Below are positions 54,423 to 58,274 of a stretch of DNA of 64,000 bases, piece after piece. This DNA is from Bremerella sp. P1 (GTDB taxonomy: Bacteria; Planctomycetota; Planctomycetia; Pirellulales; Pirellulaceae): contig NZ_CP118164.1 of NCBI RefSeq assembly GCF_028748185.1, positions 5,419,814 to 5,483,813 on the forward strand, read 5' to 3'. Each line of letters begins with the position of its first letter. Position 1 is the stretch's first letter. The position numbers and the translations under genes are program-made. A model generated the notes under the pieces. That model ran no database searches, was not told the origin of the DNA, and saw nothing but the letters and a program-made list of their open reading frames with translations.

Positions 54423-56078
54423 TTAGAAGAGAATCGTTTCCGAGACGAACACGCCATCGCGGCGTAGCGACTCGGTGTCAGAGAGATTCACGATCCCCAA
54501 GACTTCGAAGAAAGTTCGTTTGCTTGTCTTTCGCTGGTAGCGAAGGCCAAACCCGTAGACCAAGTCGCCGTTGGGCGATTGGAAGGCGATTTCTGGGGCG
54601 ATCGACTCGTCTTCGTGGTGTCGGAACAACTGAATGCCCAGCGAAGCCCCGTAGTTCTCGCCGAGGCTACTACCAGAAGAAATCGCCACCAGGGGATTCA
54701 CGTCGAATGCGGCCCGTAGACGATTGAAATTGCCACCACCGGCTGAGTTCCAGCCGTCCGTTGCATAGAAGACATTGCAGTAGGCCACCCCAAACTCGAT
54801 GCCTAGCGGATGGGCAGGCATGAGAAGGGTGTAGTTCGATTCCAAGACAAACAACTCGCCTGAGCCGGTACCAGCTTCGTCCCCGAATTTGAACAGGGCC
54901 CGCGTGGCATAGTTGAACCGGCCGTGGAACTTGGTGCGACTGACCGCCGCGAAATGCTGGTCGCGACCAGGCGCATCGGGCGTTTCGACAAACAGGTAGG
55001 ACGCTTCGTAGAAGACCCGCTCGTAATCGATGCTGAAATTCGTTCCATACATCCGGCTATTGTCGTCGGCGACATTGTCGACATCGCTGGCCGCGTAAAT
55101 GGCCTGGATGTTGATGTTGCTGGTGTTGCCAACAAAGAGCGTATTCTTGTTGATGACGGTCCCCAGGAGTTCGTCGTTCATCAACAGTTGGTTGTGCAGC
55201 TGGAACGGAAACTTGCCGCCAACCATGTGCACGTCGCGGACAGCGAATGGACTCATGAAGCCAGAGAACATGCTGTGCAGTTCTCCTTCAAACCAGAATC
55301 GCTGAGGCACACCGGTGCTGTTATCGATGTACCCAGCCGGATCGCTGAAGCGGTAGTACGAACCGCCGGTGTTGTCTTTGCCGATGGGACGGAACTGCAC
55401 GTGAAAGCGTTCGGTCCCGGTTAGACGCAAGTCCAAGTCGACCAGCAACTGATGCCCCAGACCATCGCTACGCGTATTGCCCTGCTTGTATGCAATGGCA
55501 CTGGCTTGGTAACCACCGTAGGCGACAAAGCGCGGTTCCCAGTTGTAGGCACCTGGCCCAAACCAGTCCAGCGAATACTGCTTGATCGGTCCTTCCCCTT
55601 CGAACTGTGTGAATAGCGTGAAGGGTTCGGGATCGATGTAATCTTCCGGTAGCCGCAGCATTTCGTAGTCGGTGTGCTCATCCTTGCAAGGAAAGCCCAG
55701 GCGGTCCCCTTCTGGTGCGTAGATGTACGAGCCGCCATGTTGCCACAGTTCTTCATCCAGTGATGGGAGTGGCTCGTCTTCCCAGGCCTTGCTCTGAGGA
55801 TTATCTGGTGTGGCAAGGGGCAACAGGTGCGGCAATTCCTGAGGTGTCTCGATCGCTTCGGACAGCGGAGGTAGCAGTGACTCGTGCATGGGCGCAAAGC
55901 TGGCATGCTTCATCTCAGGAATCGTTAACCGAATGGGCCTGTCGCTCGACTGGCCAGGAATCGGCGGCTCTCCAAAGAGCGAGTCCTCTCCCAGCACGAC
56001 CGAGCCACAGCAAAGAATTGCCGAGCACCACGCCGAAGCGAAGAGATGTCGAAGTTTGGATTGCACATGCGACGTCAT
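54423..56078 (-). CDS. Outer-membrane beta-barrel candidate coupled to the hexahaem cytochrome
   Basis: A 551-residue protein with signal peptide (SAWCSAILCCGSVVLGE) and, after a 110-residue Pro-rich part, alternating beta strands rich in aromatic residues (EPRFVAYGGYQASAIAY, RFHVQFRPIGKDNTGGSYY, NINIQAIYAA). The last strand ends SETILF with a terminal phenylalanine, the classical signal of outer-membrane proteins. I chose ATG 56078 because it overlaps the stop of the cytochrome gene as ATGA, implying translational coupling. A porin-cytochrome role in electron transfer across the outer membrane is possible but unproven. Confidence 0.78.
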   Translation of the reverse strand: MTSHVQSKLRHLFASAWCSAILCCGSVVLGEDSLFGEPPIPGQSSDRPIRLTIPEMKHASFAPMHESLLPPLSEAIETPQELPHLLPLATPDNPQSKAWEDEPLPSLDEELWQHGGSYIYAPEGDRLGFPCKDEHTDYEMLRLPEDYIDPEPFTLFTQFEGEGPIKQYSLDWFGPGAYNWEPRFVAYGGYQASAIAYKQGNTRSDGLGHQLLVDLDLRLTGTERFHVQFRPIGKDNTGGSYYRFSDPAGYIDNSTGVPQRFWFEGELHSMFSGFMSPFAVRDVHMVGGKFPFQLHNQLLMNDELLGTVINKNTLFVGNTSNINIQAIYAASDVDNVADDNSRMYGTNFSIDYERVFYEASYLFVETPDAPGRDQHFAAVSRTKFHGRFNYATRALFKFGDEAGTGSGELFVLESNYTLLMPAHPLGIEFGVAYCNVFYATDGWNSAGGGNFNRLRAAFDVNPLVAISSGSSLGENYGASLGIQLFRHHEDESIAPEIAFQSPNGDLVYGFGLRYQRKTSKRTFFEVLGIVNLSDTESLRRDGVFVSETILF

Positions 56079-58048
56079 GGAGTGACCTCGATGGTGCCAC
56101 ACCATTCTTGCAGGACGACCACCTCGAGCAGATGCTTCAAGTGAGGCGTACCGATGCGATCTAGAAGTGTTGGAGGAAGGTGACGGAAGTTGAGACGGGC
56201 CGTCACGCGGTACGTTCCTGGCTGCTTAGGCAGGTGTACGGGATAGGTTCGCCCTTGCTTGGAAAGGGGAGCCAGGCTTCCCTTGGCGATTCGGAATACC
56301 GGAGGTCGGCCGAACGAGGCGGAGATGCCATCGGCAGGACGCACGAAGCTGAGGGGATTCAGGTGGCGATTCACCGAGAGAACCACCGAGCGATCCGTGC
56401 CTTCGGACGTGAGTGCTGTGAACTTGTTTTGGAAGTTGAGCAAGTGCTTATCGTATGGAATCTTGCCGGCCAGGACGGCGTGGCTATGTTCGTCGCGCAG
56501 GTCGCCGTTGTCATCGAGGTCGCCCGAGGTGAAGACAATCCGTCCTTGTTCGTCATGCACCAGGACTGAAACCCAAGCCTGGCGTTCGGCGGTAAAACCG
56601 GTGGGGAAGCTGTGCCCGGACAGCTTGCTCTTCACTTCGACGTTGATATGAACCTTGTCGCCACAACCGGCTGTTTCCGGAGCACTCACGTAAAGGTCCG
56701 CTGCCTGGGACAGCACTTCGTATCGCTTTTGGGCGGCGATGCGATTGCTGTGACGGTTCTTCTTGCGAAGCTCCGTGAGCGTTTCCTTTTGGTATTCCGT
56801 CAGTGAATTCCAGTCACGGTAATCGACCTCGTACATCCAGTCGAGCTTCTCAGGGAACTCGGTATCGGGAAGCAGAGAGTAATCAGGACCGGCGAAGGTG
56901 TGATCGGTGAGTGGGCGAAGGGGGATCTGTTCTTCCGGTACGTCTGGCACCACGGCTGCTCGTCCCAAGGGGCGTTCGCAGTCTTTGAACGGAACGCCTT
57001 GTACGGGACCCATGTGGCACTGTTGGCAGGTAATCCCTTGCTTGGCCGCCGGGCTGTTTTGCCACTCGCTGAACGCTTCTTCAAGACGGACGCCTTGTGG
57101 GTTGGTCACGTCGTGGCATTCGCCGCAGAACTGCGAAGTCTTGATGTAGGGAAGGCCTTTTGATTCGTGTGTTGCCATCGCTTCGCCGCCGGTGGCATCG
57201 TCGAAGGGACCATACATGCACACGTCTTCTAACTTGCCGGGTTCGATCGGGACACGCCCGCTCGACTTGTAGTGCTTGGTGCTGCGGCGGTGGCAAGAGA
57301 CACAGGTAACCCCTTCCATCGAGACCCGCGAACGGTGGACGTTGCGGCGGTTGCCATTCTCGCCCAGTGCCGTACCGACCGGCGTATGGCAGCGTGTGCA
57401 GAAGGTTCCTTGCGTTCCTTGGGTGCGTTCCATGAGGGTCAAGTTGAAGGCCTCAAACACAGGGCTATGCTGGGCATAGGCGTGCATCGAACGGGACCAT
57501 TCGTCGTACTGTTTCGGATGGCAGGTCTGACACTGCTTGGCCGATGGAAATTCCATCTCGGTCAGCGGAGTGATATTGCAGTTCTCAGGCAGTGCGTATT
57601 CCAGGGCACCGTTTTCGATCCAGCGGTAGATTGCTTCCTGCTGACCTGGGGTAAGCCACTCCATCTTGTCTGGTGGCATTTCCGGCGTACGCGGCATGCC
57701 AGATCCAGGCTGGGCGTGTTCGTCCCATTCGATGTACATCAGCAGTGCCGAGTCTTTCGGGTTGCCTGGAATGACAAGGCGATCGTTGCCTGACTTGCCG
57801 GCGAGCAGGGCCTCGTAGGTGCTCAGGTCGACCCGCTTTGTGTTAGGGCGATGGCATCCGGCACACTTGTTGGCCAGGGTCATATAGACTTCGGGCCAAT
57901 CGACATCGTAGGGATGAGGCTGCGAAATCAGATGGGGAATTGCTTCCACGGTTGTCGGGGCCGCACCCCAGAACCACAGCGCGCTGACCAGGCTCAGACC
58001 GAGGGTCAAAACCGCCAATTGGGAGGTCAATTTTTTGGCTGCGGGCAT
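56075..58048 (-). CDS. Secreted hexahaem cytochrome c
   Basis: A 657-residue exported cytochrome with signal anchor (LTSQLAVLTLGLSLVSALWF). Six CxxCH haem sites are visible: CAGCH, CQTCH, CTRCH, CVSCH, CGECH and CQQCH. The first lies in a planctomycete-type cytochrome domain (about 50-150), and the other five in a cytochrome c554-like region (about 165-345). The C-terminal 230 residues look like a beta-sandwich (GHSFPTGFTAERQAWVSVLV), as found in some multihaem cytochromes. GGAAGGA precedes ATG 58048. It probably moves electrons in the periplasm or to the cell surface, with the coupled barrel downstream. Confidence 0.9.
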   Translation of the reverse strand: MPAAKKLTSQLAVLTLGLSLVSALWFWGAAPTTVEAIPHLISQPHPYDVDWPEVYMTLANKCAGCHRPNTKRVDLSTYEALLAGKSGNDRLVIPGNPKDSALLMYIEWDEHAQPGSGMPRTPEMPPDKMEWLTPGQQEAIYRWIENGALEYALPENCNITPLTEMEFPSAKQCQTCHPKQYDEWSRSMHAYAQHSPVFEAFNLTLMERTQGTQGTFCTRCHTPVGTALGENGNRRNVHRSRVSMEGVTCVSCHRRSTKHYKSSGRVPIEPGKLEDVCMYGPFDDATGGEAMATHESKGLPYIKTSQFCGECHDVTNPQGVRLEEAFSEWQNSPAAKQGITCQQCHMGPVQGVPFKDCERPLGRAAVVPDVPEEQIPLRPLTDHTFAGPDYSLLPDTEFPEKLDWMYEVDYRDWNSLTEYQKETLTELRKKNRHSNRIAAQKRYEVLSQAADLYVSAPETAGCGDKVHINVEVKSKLSGHSFPTGFTAERQAWVSVLVHDEQGRIVFTSGDLDDNGDLRDEHSHAVLAGKIPYDKHLLNFQNKFTALTSEGTDRSVVLSVNRHLNPLSFVRPADGISASFGRPPVFRIAKGSLAPLSKQGRTYPVHLPKQPGTYRVTARLNFRHLPPTLLDRIGTPHLKHLLEVVVLQEWCGTIEVTP

Positions 58049-58274
58049 TCGGGTATCCTTCCCGTCGATCGATCGCGTTCCGGCCCTCCGATGGCTAGAA
58101 CTACTGGGGTTGCGTGCACTGCATCCCCTGATATCACTTTTCGGCAGGGCGTTGGGGAGAGTCTTAGCTAACTAAGTGCGCACGTAGCTTTTAGAATAAT
58201 CGGAAATGCTTAATACGAAGCTTCATGTTCCGCGATCGATTCCCCAAGAATTTGGCCTTAAAAGACGGTCCAAA
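58049..58274. other. Upstream region of the cytochrome operon
   Basis: 226 bases without a gene, between the stop of the J-domain-like gene and the cytochrome start, both on the minus strand. The cytochrome promoter should lie here. I see no clear terminator for the J-domain-like gene. Confidence 0.45.

Follow-up and report, generated by a model that had tools for sequence, protein, structure and literature searches.

The window analysed here is a stretch of 64,000 nucleotides from Bremerella sp. P1 (contig NZ_CP118164.1, positions 5,419,814 to 5,483,813), and it contains a pair of genes on its minus strand: a gene for a multihaem cytochrome (56075-58048), followed by a gene for a predicted outer-membrane beta-barrel protein (54423-56078). 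The pairing of these genes is conserved across the phylum, and the view that they form an outer-membrane redox module is, on the sequence data, well supported. The cytochrome and the barrel probably constitute a so far unstudied device that moves electrons at the outer membrane. In the specific form that we prefer, and which we regard as slightly better than an even bet, the pair encodes the outer-membrane end of an electron-transfer route, with the cytochrome docking on or partly into its cognate barrel and passing electrons at the outer membrane. Two types of pair were distinguished by sequence and haem number: the A type, with six haems, to which the window pair belongs, and the B type, with five. 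The features of the window locus are the following.

56075-58048, minus strand: A-type hexahaem cytochrome gene, 657 amino acids, with a signal-like N-terminus, a PSCyt1-like monohaem domain, a pentahaem core and a C-terminal domain.
57677-57865, minus strand: PSCyt1-type haem domain (C62-H66, candidate Met ligand M124); Pfam PSCyt1 score 21.6 bits, cut-off 22.
56849-57553, minus strand: core resembling the pentahaem cytochrome (PHC) family, ExtKL and c552, residues ~166-400, with five CxxCH motifs and invariant further His 189, 294 and 383; PF13435.
56078-56728, minus strand: C-terminal domain of the cytochrome (residues ~441-657), with the motif GH479xxPTG and H521 as candidate distal ligands; weak colinear extra segment with 5ze8.
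56075-56078, minus strand: ATGA stop/start overlap (barrel ATG at 56078-56076, cytochrome TGA at 56077-56075).
54423-56078, minus strand: predicted outer-membrane beta-barrel gene, 551 amino acids from the ATGA start (560 from an ATG at 56105).
55593-55817, minus strand: A-type-specific N-terminal barrel segment, residues 88-162; model from 17 A-type barrels.
54426-55586, minus strand: strand-rich barrel domain, residues 165-551 (387 amino acids), ending in F and with 13 to 19 alternating segments according to the threshold chosen.
58194-58205, minus strand: conserved upstream element TTCCGATTATTC, aligned in seven of the eight species of the genus.

An earlier note on this DNA had described the genes as overlapping in an ATGA, and the first as encoding an exported cytochrome with six CxxCH sites. 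The overlap and all six motifs (CAGCH, CQTCH, CTRCH, CVSCH, CGECH and CQQCH) are present as described, and the N-terminus of the cytochrome looks signal-like on inspection by eye. Translation of the two genes is likely coupled through the overlap. An open ATG upstream, at 56105, offers an alternative start for the barrel. The start within the overlap is likelier, because in two congeners (L007 = G008 and L008 = G005) the barrel reading frame opens precisely with the 4-base overlap, and one TGA is flagged in the longer barrel alignment. The conserved element upstream of the pair is possibly a promoter or operator.

Among 60 relatives, an A-type cytochrome (E below 1e-240) is present in 19, and these are also the ones with a strong barrel match (E below 1e-130); according to their coordinates, both genes lie on one strand in all of these genomes, with the cytochrome first. 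The barrel was also found downstream of the cytochrome in 16 of 16 loci from named contigs, a count that overlaps with the previous one, as L062, L068, L069, L073 and L076 are taken to be the same genomes as G028, G022, G024, G045 and G030, respectively. The named-contig locus L077 ends at a contig edge. At L074 (3216-5284), the cytochrome is split into two overlapping open frames next to an intact barrel, which reflects either an assembly error or decay.

In a set of 392 genomes of the phylum, the barrel profile matched 47, and a cytochrome was located within 3.5 kb upstream at 48 of 50 barrel places. This count leaves out two of 52 barrel rows, which are second segments of genes already counted, and its cytochrome rows are a hand-copied part of the table. 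The two places lacking an upstream cytochrome are in G082, where the barrel is near a contig start, and in G130; at the latter (L107, G130:C37) the barrel homologue has no pentahaem cytochrome in the rows used, and a decahaem match lies ~7 kb away. We also read 20 extra stretches (cytochromes without a barrel match, second copies and G082). Nineteen of them hold a cytochrome, which has a barrel directly downstream in 16 cases (E below 1e-80) and lies on a stretch reaching a contig end in the other three. The barrels found in this way show that "cytochromes without a barrel" are mostly a sensitivity effect. Unlinked genes in relatives had been named beforehand as the observation that would speak against the pair; linkage instead held in every one of the 19 relatives and at all but two of the 50 barrel places. 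Because the pairing is conserved phylum-wide, the arrangement is not due to chance.

The A-type unit consists of just these two genes, since no other gene family was common to more than three of 17 A-type loci (window included; frames of at least 90 amino acids, flanks up to 8 kb). The cytochrome is counted in 16 of the 17 in this comparison; at L071 it was displaced by an antisense frame, yet is present on direct reading. In the metagenome-assembled genome (MAG) JASMLW01, an A-type pair is present on each of two contigs (L070 and L075), which shows that duplication occurs in the A type as well. At L179 (6023-11648, G160), two tandem pentahaem cytochrome genes are located ahead of one barrel gene.

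The split into A and B types is identical in the cytochrome and barrel trees, with 26 A and 26 B among 52 pairs. Distances in the two trees are correlated within each type (r = 0.85 for A and 0.98 for B; permuted maxima, 0.25 and 0.29), and shared species history contributes to these correlations. Three genomes in the tree hold both types (G195; G024, taken as L069; and G045, taken as L073), and in each of them every cytochrome is paired with a barrel of its own type. As judged from these trees, the barrel and the cytochrome have evolved together. The sixth CxxCH motif is confined to the A type, the 28 B-type sequences having five only, and the model of the N-terminal barrel segment matched the barrels at all 26 A-type loci but, at E below 1, none of the B type. 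The extra haem domain is thus accompanied by the extra barrel segment, a link that may go back to a single evolutionary event.

The window cytochrome matched Cytochrome_C554 in Pfam (E = 8.8e-10), with a PF13435 match in the pentahaem core. The match to PSCyt1 (PF07635; E = 3.3e-4), which falls just short of the gathering cut-off, spans C62-H66, and Met124, located after this haem, is invariant in 15 aligned A-type sequences. In all of 37 cytochromes compared, the five core CxxCH motifs and four further His (189, 294, 383 and 479) are invariant. H521 is kept in 28 of the 37, including all nine A types in that set, and is absent from 9 of the 28 B types; the A type thus retains all five candidate distal His. 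The simplest reading of these conserved residues is that the A type would contain five bis-His haems and one His/Met haem and would serve electron transfer rather than catalysis.

A profile of the 37 cytochromes matched the pentahaem cytochrome c552 of 5ze8 with E = 2e-18, all five haem sites being colinear; a further match at the HxxPTG motif is weak taken alone. The best NCBIfam model for the window cytochrome is ExtKL (NF040886), at 48.6 bits against an equivalog cut-off of 250. This model matched 35 of the 37 cytochromes at E ≤ 1e-3, and UshA-like and DmsE models each matched 34, below cut-off level. By these scores, the window cytochrome is a relative of ExtKL and not an ExtKL. As described in excerpts of a 2025 paper (PMC11976967), the PHC family includes ExtKL, Gsu2801 and pentahaem cytochromes of cable bacteria, and is structurally homologous to both c552 and the cytochrome nanowires of archaea. 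The five colinear CxxCH motifs, together with a predicted C-terminal beta domain, place the cytochromes studied here in this PHC (ExtKL/c552) family. Lipobox-like patterns, detected with a simple regular expression, precede the first haem in the cytochromes of L125, L126, L130 and L133, and also in those of L062 and L124; some cytochromes may therefore be lipoproteins.

The second protein had been credited with a signal peptide, alternating beta strands and a C-terminal phenylalanine. It does have a signal-like start, and it ends in VFVSETILF; the last residue of 37 divergent homologues is F in 35, W in one and G in one. Alternating segments in excess of shuffles were seen for the wide alignment of these 37 homologues (A3) and not for the A-type alignment (A1) or the window sequence. 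Hydrophobicity at lag 2 gave z = 3.0 for A3 and 2.2 for A1, with control values of 2.2 for Porin_O_P and of -0.6 (A) and -2.0 (A+B) for the cytochrome haem core. Three thresholds were used for alternating segments: at the strictest, A3 contains 13 where shuffled versions have 5.4 +/- 1.9 (z 4.0), and the excess at the two laxer ones corresponds to z 2.2 and 1.6. The excess for Porin_O_P is smaller than that for A3 (z about 2), and a single OmpC sequence gave no clear excess. As a test for barrels, the alternation score was discarded for single sequences and for A1, as it did not separate barrels from soluble proteins there; only A3 stood out.

Searches of Pfam and NCBIfam gave no match for the window barrel protein at E ≤ 1. 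None of the 37 barrels matched PF07396 (Porin_O_P), and assignment to this family was rejected after hhalign comparison with 18 planctomycete members gave probabilities of 0.8% and 1.8%. One of the 37 barrels matched Porin_4 (E = 0.012). A search of the PDB gave no credible match for the barrel, and a search of PHROGs nothing credible. PF11854 (MtrB_PioB) matched neither the barrel nor any other protein of its own genome, and among the 60 relatives it gave a single partial match, in one genome. The barrel thus appears to represent a family that is without a current model in the libraries searched. The sequence features together support, though they do not prove, that the second protein is an outer-membrane beta-barrel.

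We then examined the neighbourhoods of 26 B-type pairs, with neighbour domains checked on examples. A tetrahaem c554-like cytochrome is present in 11 of them and a decahaem cytochrome in 10; a protein with cyclic-nucleotide (cNMP)-binding and 4Fe-4S domains occurs in 11 by linkage (eight of them long forms), a 280-amino-acid protein with hydrophobic segments in eight, and an NAD(P)H/FAD/2Fe-2S reductase with a hydrophobic N-terminus in six. Six of the 26 neighbourhoods (L179-L184) were chosen after a glimpse of their neighbours, and a short downstream stretch of L204 and L205 had been seen before; among the 20 loci L190-L209, the tetrahaem cytochrome was found in seven and the decahaem cytochrome in six. 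Several members of the decahaem family have a Cys-rich N-terminus, a hydrophobic segment and ten haems. At three loci (L179:11655-18532, L180:7717-14635 and L181:11034-17928), the flavin/2Fe-2S reductase, the tetrahaem cytochrome, the cNMP/4Fe-4S protein, the membrane protein and the decahaem cytochrome form a five-gene set. Its members score below curated equivalog cut-offs, and judging by its domains the set looks like an electron route from NAD(P)H to the periplasm. The B-type pair of L192 adjoins cytochromes with 15 and 17 CxxCH motifs and that of L209 cytochromes with 11 and 4, apparently another set of multihaem partners.

The decahaem profile matched 40 of the 392 genomes, and 37 of these also contain a B-type cytochrome (Fisher p = 7e-38, uncorrected for ancestry); the two genes are no more than 20 kb apart in 27 of these 37. 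The 49 B-type genomes were listed by hand at about E ≤ 1e-45. At E ≤ 1e-20, a cytochrome was found in 99 genomes; the 39 weaker ones were left out of the A/B assignment, and the 40 decahaem genomes include none of them. Within the 60 relatives, the decahaem cytochrome occurs in 15 of 16 B-type genomes and the B type in 15 of 16 decahaem genomes. The decahaem gene is located more than 400 kb from the pair in three genomes that consist of a single contig (G036, G019 and G014), and the co-occurrence is therefore not only due to shared transfer of one cluster. The only A-type genomes with the decahaem cytochrome are G016, G024 and G195, all of which also hold a B type. Profile searches of the window genome found no decahaem cytochrome and no second barrel.

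The nearest known system in gene content is ExtI-ExtKL of Geobacter sulfurreducens (extHIJKL), in which a porin-like gene is clustered with a related pentahaem cytochrome. In that cluster, according to the published excerpts, the porin gene comes first and extJ is located in between (PMC5877670, PMC6148476); ExtKL is a putative selenoprotein. The excerpts also report that an extI mutant is impaired in the reduction of selenite and tellurite and not of Fe(III) citrate, with channel and anchor roles both discussed (PMC5877670). The window pair differs from ExtI-ExtKL in that its barrel is not detectably Porin_O_P and its cytochrome, which comes nowhere near the ExtKL cut-off, carries a PSCyt1-like haem in addition; moreover, no third gene recurs in the A type. 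Cytochrome c552 of Thermochromatium tepidum (5ze8) shares the colinear five-haem core and is without a PSCyt1-like domain. We know of no barrel partner for it, although no search for one was made.

The MtrCAB and Pcc conduits also have a barrel gene adjoining that of an exported multihaem cytochrome. Their barrel, however, belongs to another family (PF11854 MtrB_PioB), to which the window barrel has no match, and their cytochromes contain eight or more haems, compared with five or six here. The earlier note had set the pair apart from known conduits by its haem number, its N-terminal planctomycete haem domain and its barrel sequence, and all three differences are real. In Cyc2, a monohaem domain is fused to a narrow barrel, which is a conceptual parallel to the combination of PSCyt1 and barrel; here, the genes are separate and there is a pentahaem core in addition.

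In the superphylum of Planctomycetes, Verrucomicrobia and Chlamydiae, barrels next to multihaem cytochromes, as here, occur in porin-cytochrome clusters of Verrucomicrobia, with an eight-haem cytochrome and a porin with 20 or more transmembrane motifs as described in excerpts of He et al. 2017 (PMC5615132). Excerpted reports likewise propose a porin-cytochrome complex in anammox planctomycetes from transcriptomics with an electrode (PMC7188810) and mention porin-cytochrome complexes in Planctomycetota MAGs (PMC10732223, PMC13264449). The planctomycete and Verrucomicrobia complexes are set apart from the present pair by description only, and overlap with it is possible. Surveys have used criteria of at least 15 haems per cluster (MHCscan; PMC11475568) or of one cytochrome carrying 10 haems or more (ghost-rock survey; PMC13264449), as stated in the excerpts, and the A-type locus falls below both because it has six haems in all. 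No title or abstract start describing the pair was found among the top-ranked results of a literature search, with subscription papers and supplements outside its reach. In comparison with these systems, the predicted pair represents a variant of its own within the porin plus multihaem-cytochrome kind, with a barrel family that none of the searched libraries models.

According to the reading that we prefer, a multihaem cytochrome of the PHC family would be exported and dock on or partly into its cognate beta-barrel, and the docked cytochrome would carry electrons between the periplasm and a partner (acceptor or donor) located at the outer membrane or beyond it. For the B type, we infer from co-occurrence and domains a route that would start at NAD(P)H and proceed via a membrane-anchored flavin/2Fe-2S reductase, the Fe-S protein, the inner-membrane decahaem cytochrome and the tetrahaem cytochrome to the pentahaem cytochrome at the barrel. 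The fused PSCyt1 haem would stand in for this feeding chain in the A type and is likely the junction at which the pentahaem core connects to the general, ordinary pool of periplasmic cytochromes.

Several observations weigh against this reading. The barrel character rests on sequence statistics only: the C-terminal domain of the cytochrome, used as a soluble control, scores similarly at lag 2 (z 1.4 for A and 2.6 for A+B), so that this signal indicates beta structure and not a barrel as such, and neither A1 nor the single window sequence shows an excess of alternating segments over shuffles. A cytochrome of ~600 amino acids is unlikely to fit wholly inside the barrel, because the strand-bearing region of 387 residues is close in size to the 346 residues of mature OmpC; the conduit barrel MtrB is much longer. 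No third gene, and hence no surface cytochrome, recurs in the 17 A-type loci, and the electron chain goes with the B type rather than with the A type of the window. Twelve of the 49 B-type genomes lack the decahaem cytochrome at the threshold used, and neither the tree correlations nor the Fisher values are corrected for shared ancestry. Finally, excerpts of the work on Geobacter report ExtI-ExtKL to be dispensable for Fe(III) oxide and low-potential electrodes (PMC5877670). Of the proposal in the earlier note of a possible new porin-cytochrome conduit, the conserved partnership of barrel and multihaem cytochrome stands; the conduit itself is one of two readings still in play, in view of the size of the strand-bearing part and of the ExtI precedent, which concerns selenite and tellurite and not Fe(III) citrate.

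Some of these points also fit a selective porin that admits a small acceptor (selenite, tellurite, another oxyanion or a chelated metal), which the cytochrome then reduces, no electrons crossing the outer membrane. The strand region is about the size of an ordinary porin, and ExtKL, the best NCBIfam model for the window cytochrome and a match for all but two of the 37 members, has its gene next to that of the porin ExtI; according to the excerpts, loss of this porin lowers selenite and tellurite reduction, mildly alters haem proteins and leaves Fe(III) citrate reduction unaffected (PMC5877670). The window barrel, however, is not detectably Porin_O_P, and ExtI (taken here by its description in the excerpts) is weakly similar to phosphate-selective porins (PMC5877670). 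Moreover, the one-to-one co-evolution would be tighter than a general solute channel needs. We consider a channel serving a periplasmic reductase to be a serious but rather doubtful explanation.

It is improbable that the cytochrome is exported to the cell surface, is anchored there or forms polymers, in the manner of the nanowire-forming proteins related to pentahaem cytochromes, and that the barrel provides the base for this export or anchoring. PHC proteins are, in the excerpted paper, structurally related to archaeal extracellular cytochrome nanowires (PMC11976967), and the few lipobox-like N-terminal patterns mentioned above would suit anchoring; yet the core keeps its own conserved candidate distal His, and a ligand borrowed from the next subunit is therefore not required. 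Slightly more improbable still is a module for detoxification or repair under nitrosative or oxidative stress, in which the pair would handle reactive nitrogen or oxygen species. Such a role would accord with the Cytochrome_C554 matches of the tetrahaem neighbours, with the flavin reductase neighbour, whose best NCBIfam model is the nitric oxide-inducible flavohaemoprotein (233 bits against a cut-off of 432), and with the loss of H521 in some B types, where one haem might be open. The A type, however, retains its full set of candidate distal His, and a dedicated outer-membrane partner would be left unexplained.

Taken in its widest form, the preferred reading is one that we put forward tentatively, as possible rather than probable. 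Planctomycetes would have a trans-envelope route of their own, ending in a pentahaem cytochrome on a new outer-membrane barrel, which in the B type would be fed from NAD(P)H via the decahaem and tetrahaem cytochromes and in the A type would have been re-plugged to the cytochrome c pool by the PSCyt1 fusion and the matching barrel segment. Electrons could then pass between planctomycetes without a classical conduit and their surroundings, perhaps either way. Should the pair work as proposed, outer-membrane electron transfer would occur in about one-seventh of the sampled planctomycete genomes (60 of 392 contain an A- or B-type cytochrome), and the capacity would extend to a genus for which no barrel of the MtrB/PioB family was found. 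The proposal would also provide candidate partners for unnamed families, namely the barrel, the decahaem cytochrome and the cNMP/Fe-S protein. A two-gene system with natural five- and six-haem versions would, moreover, bear on the question of how few haems and how small a barrel suffice.

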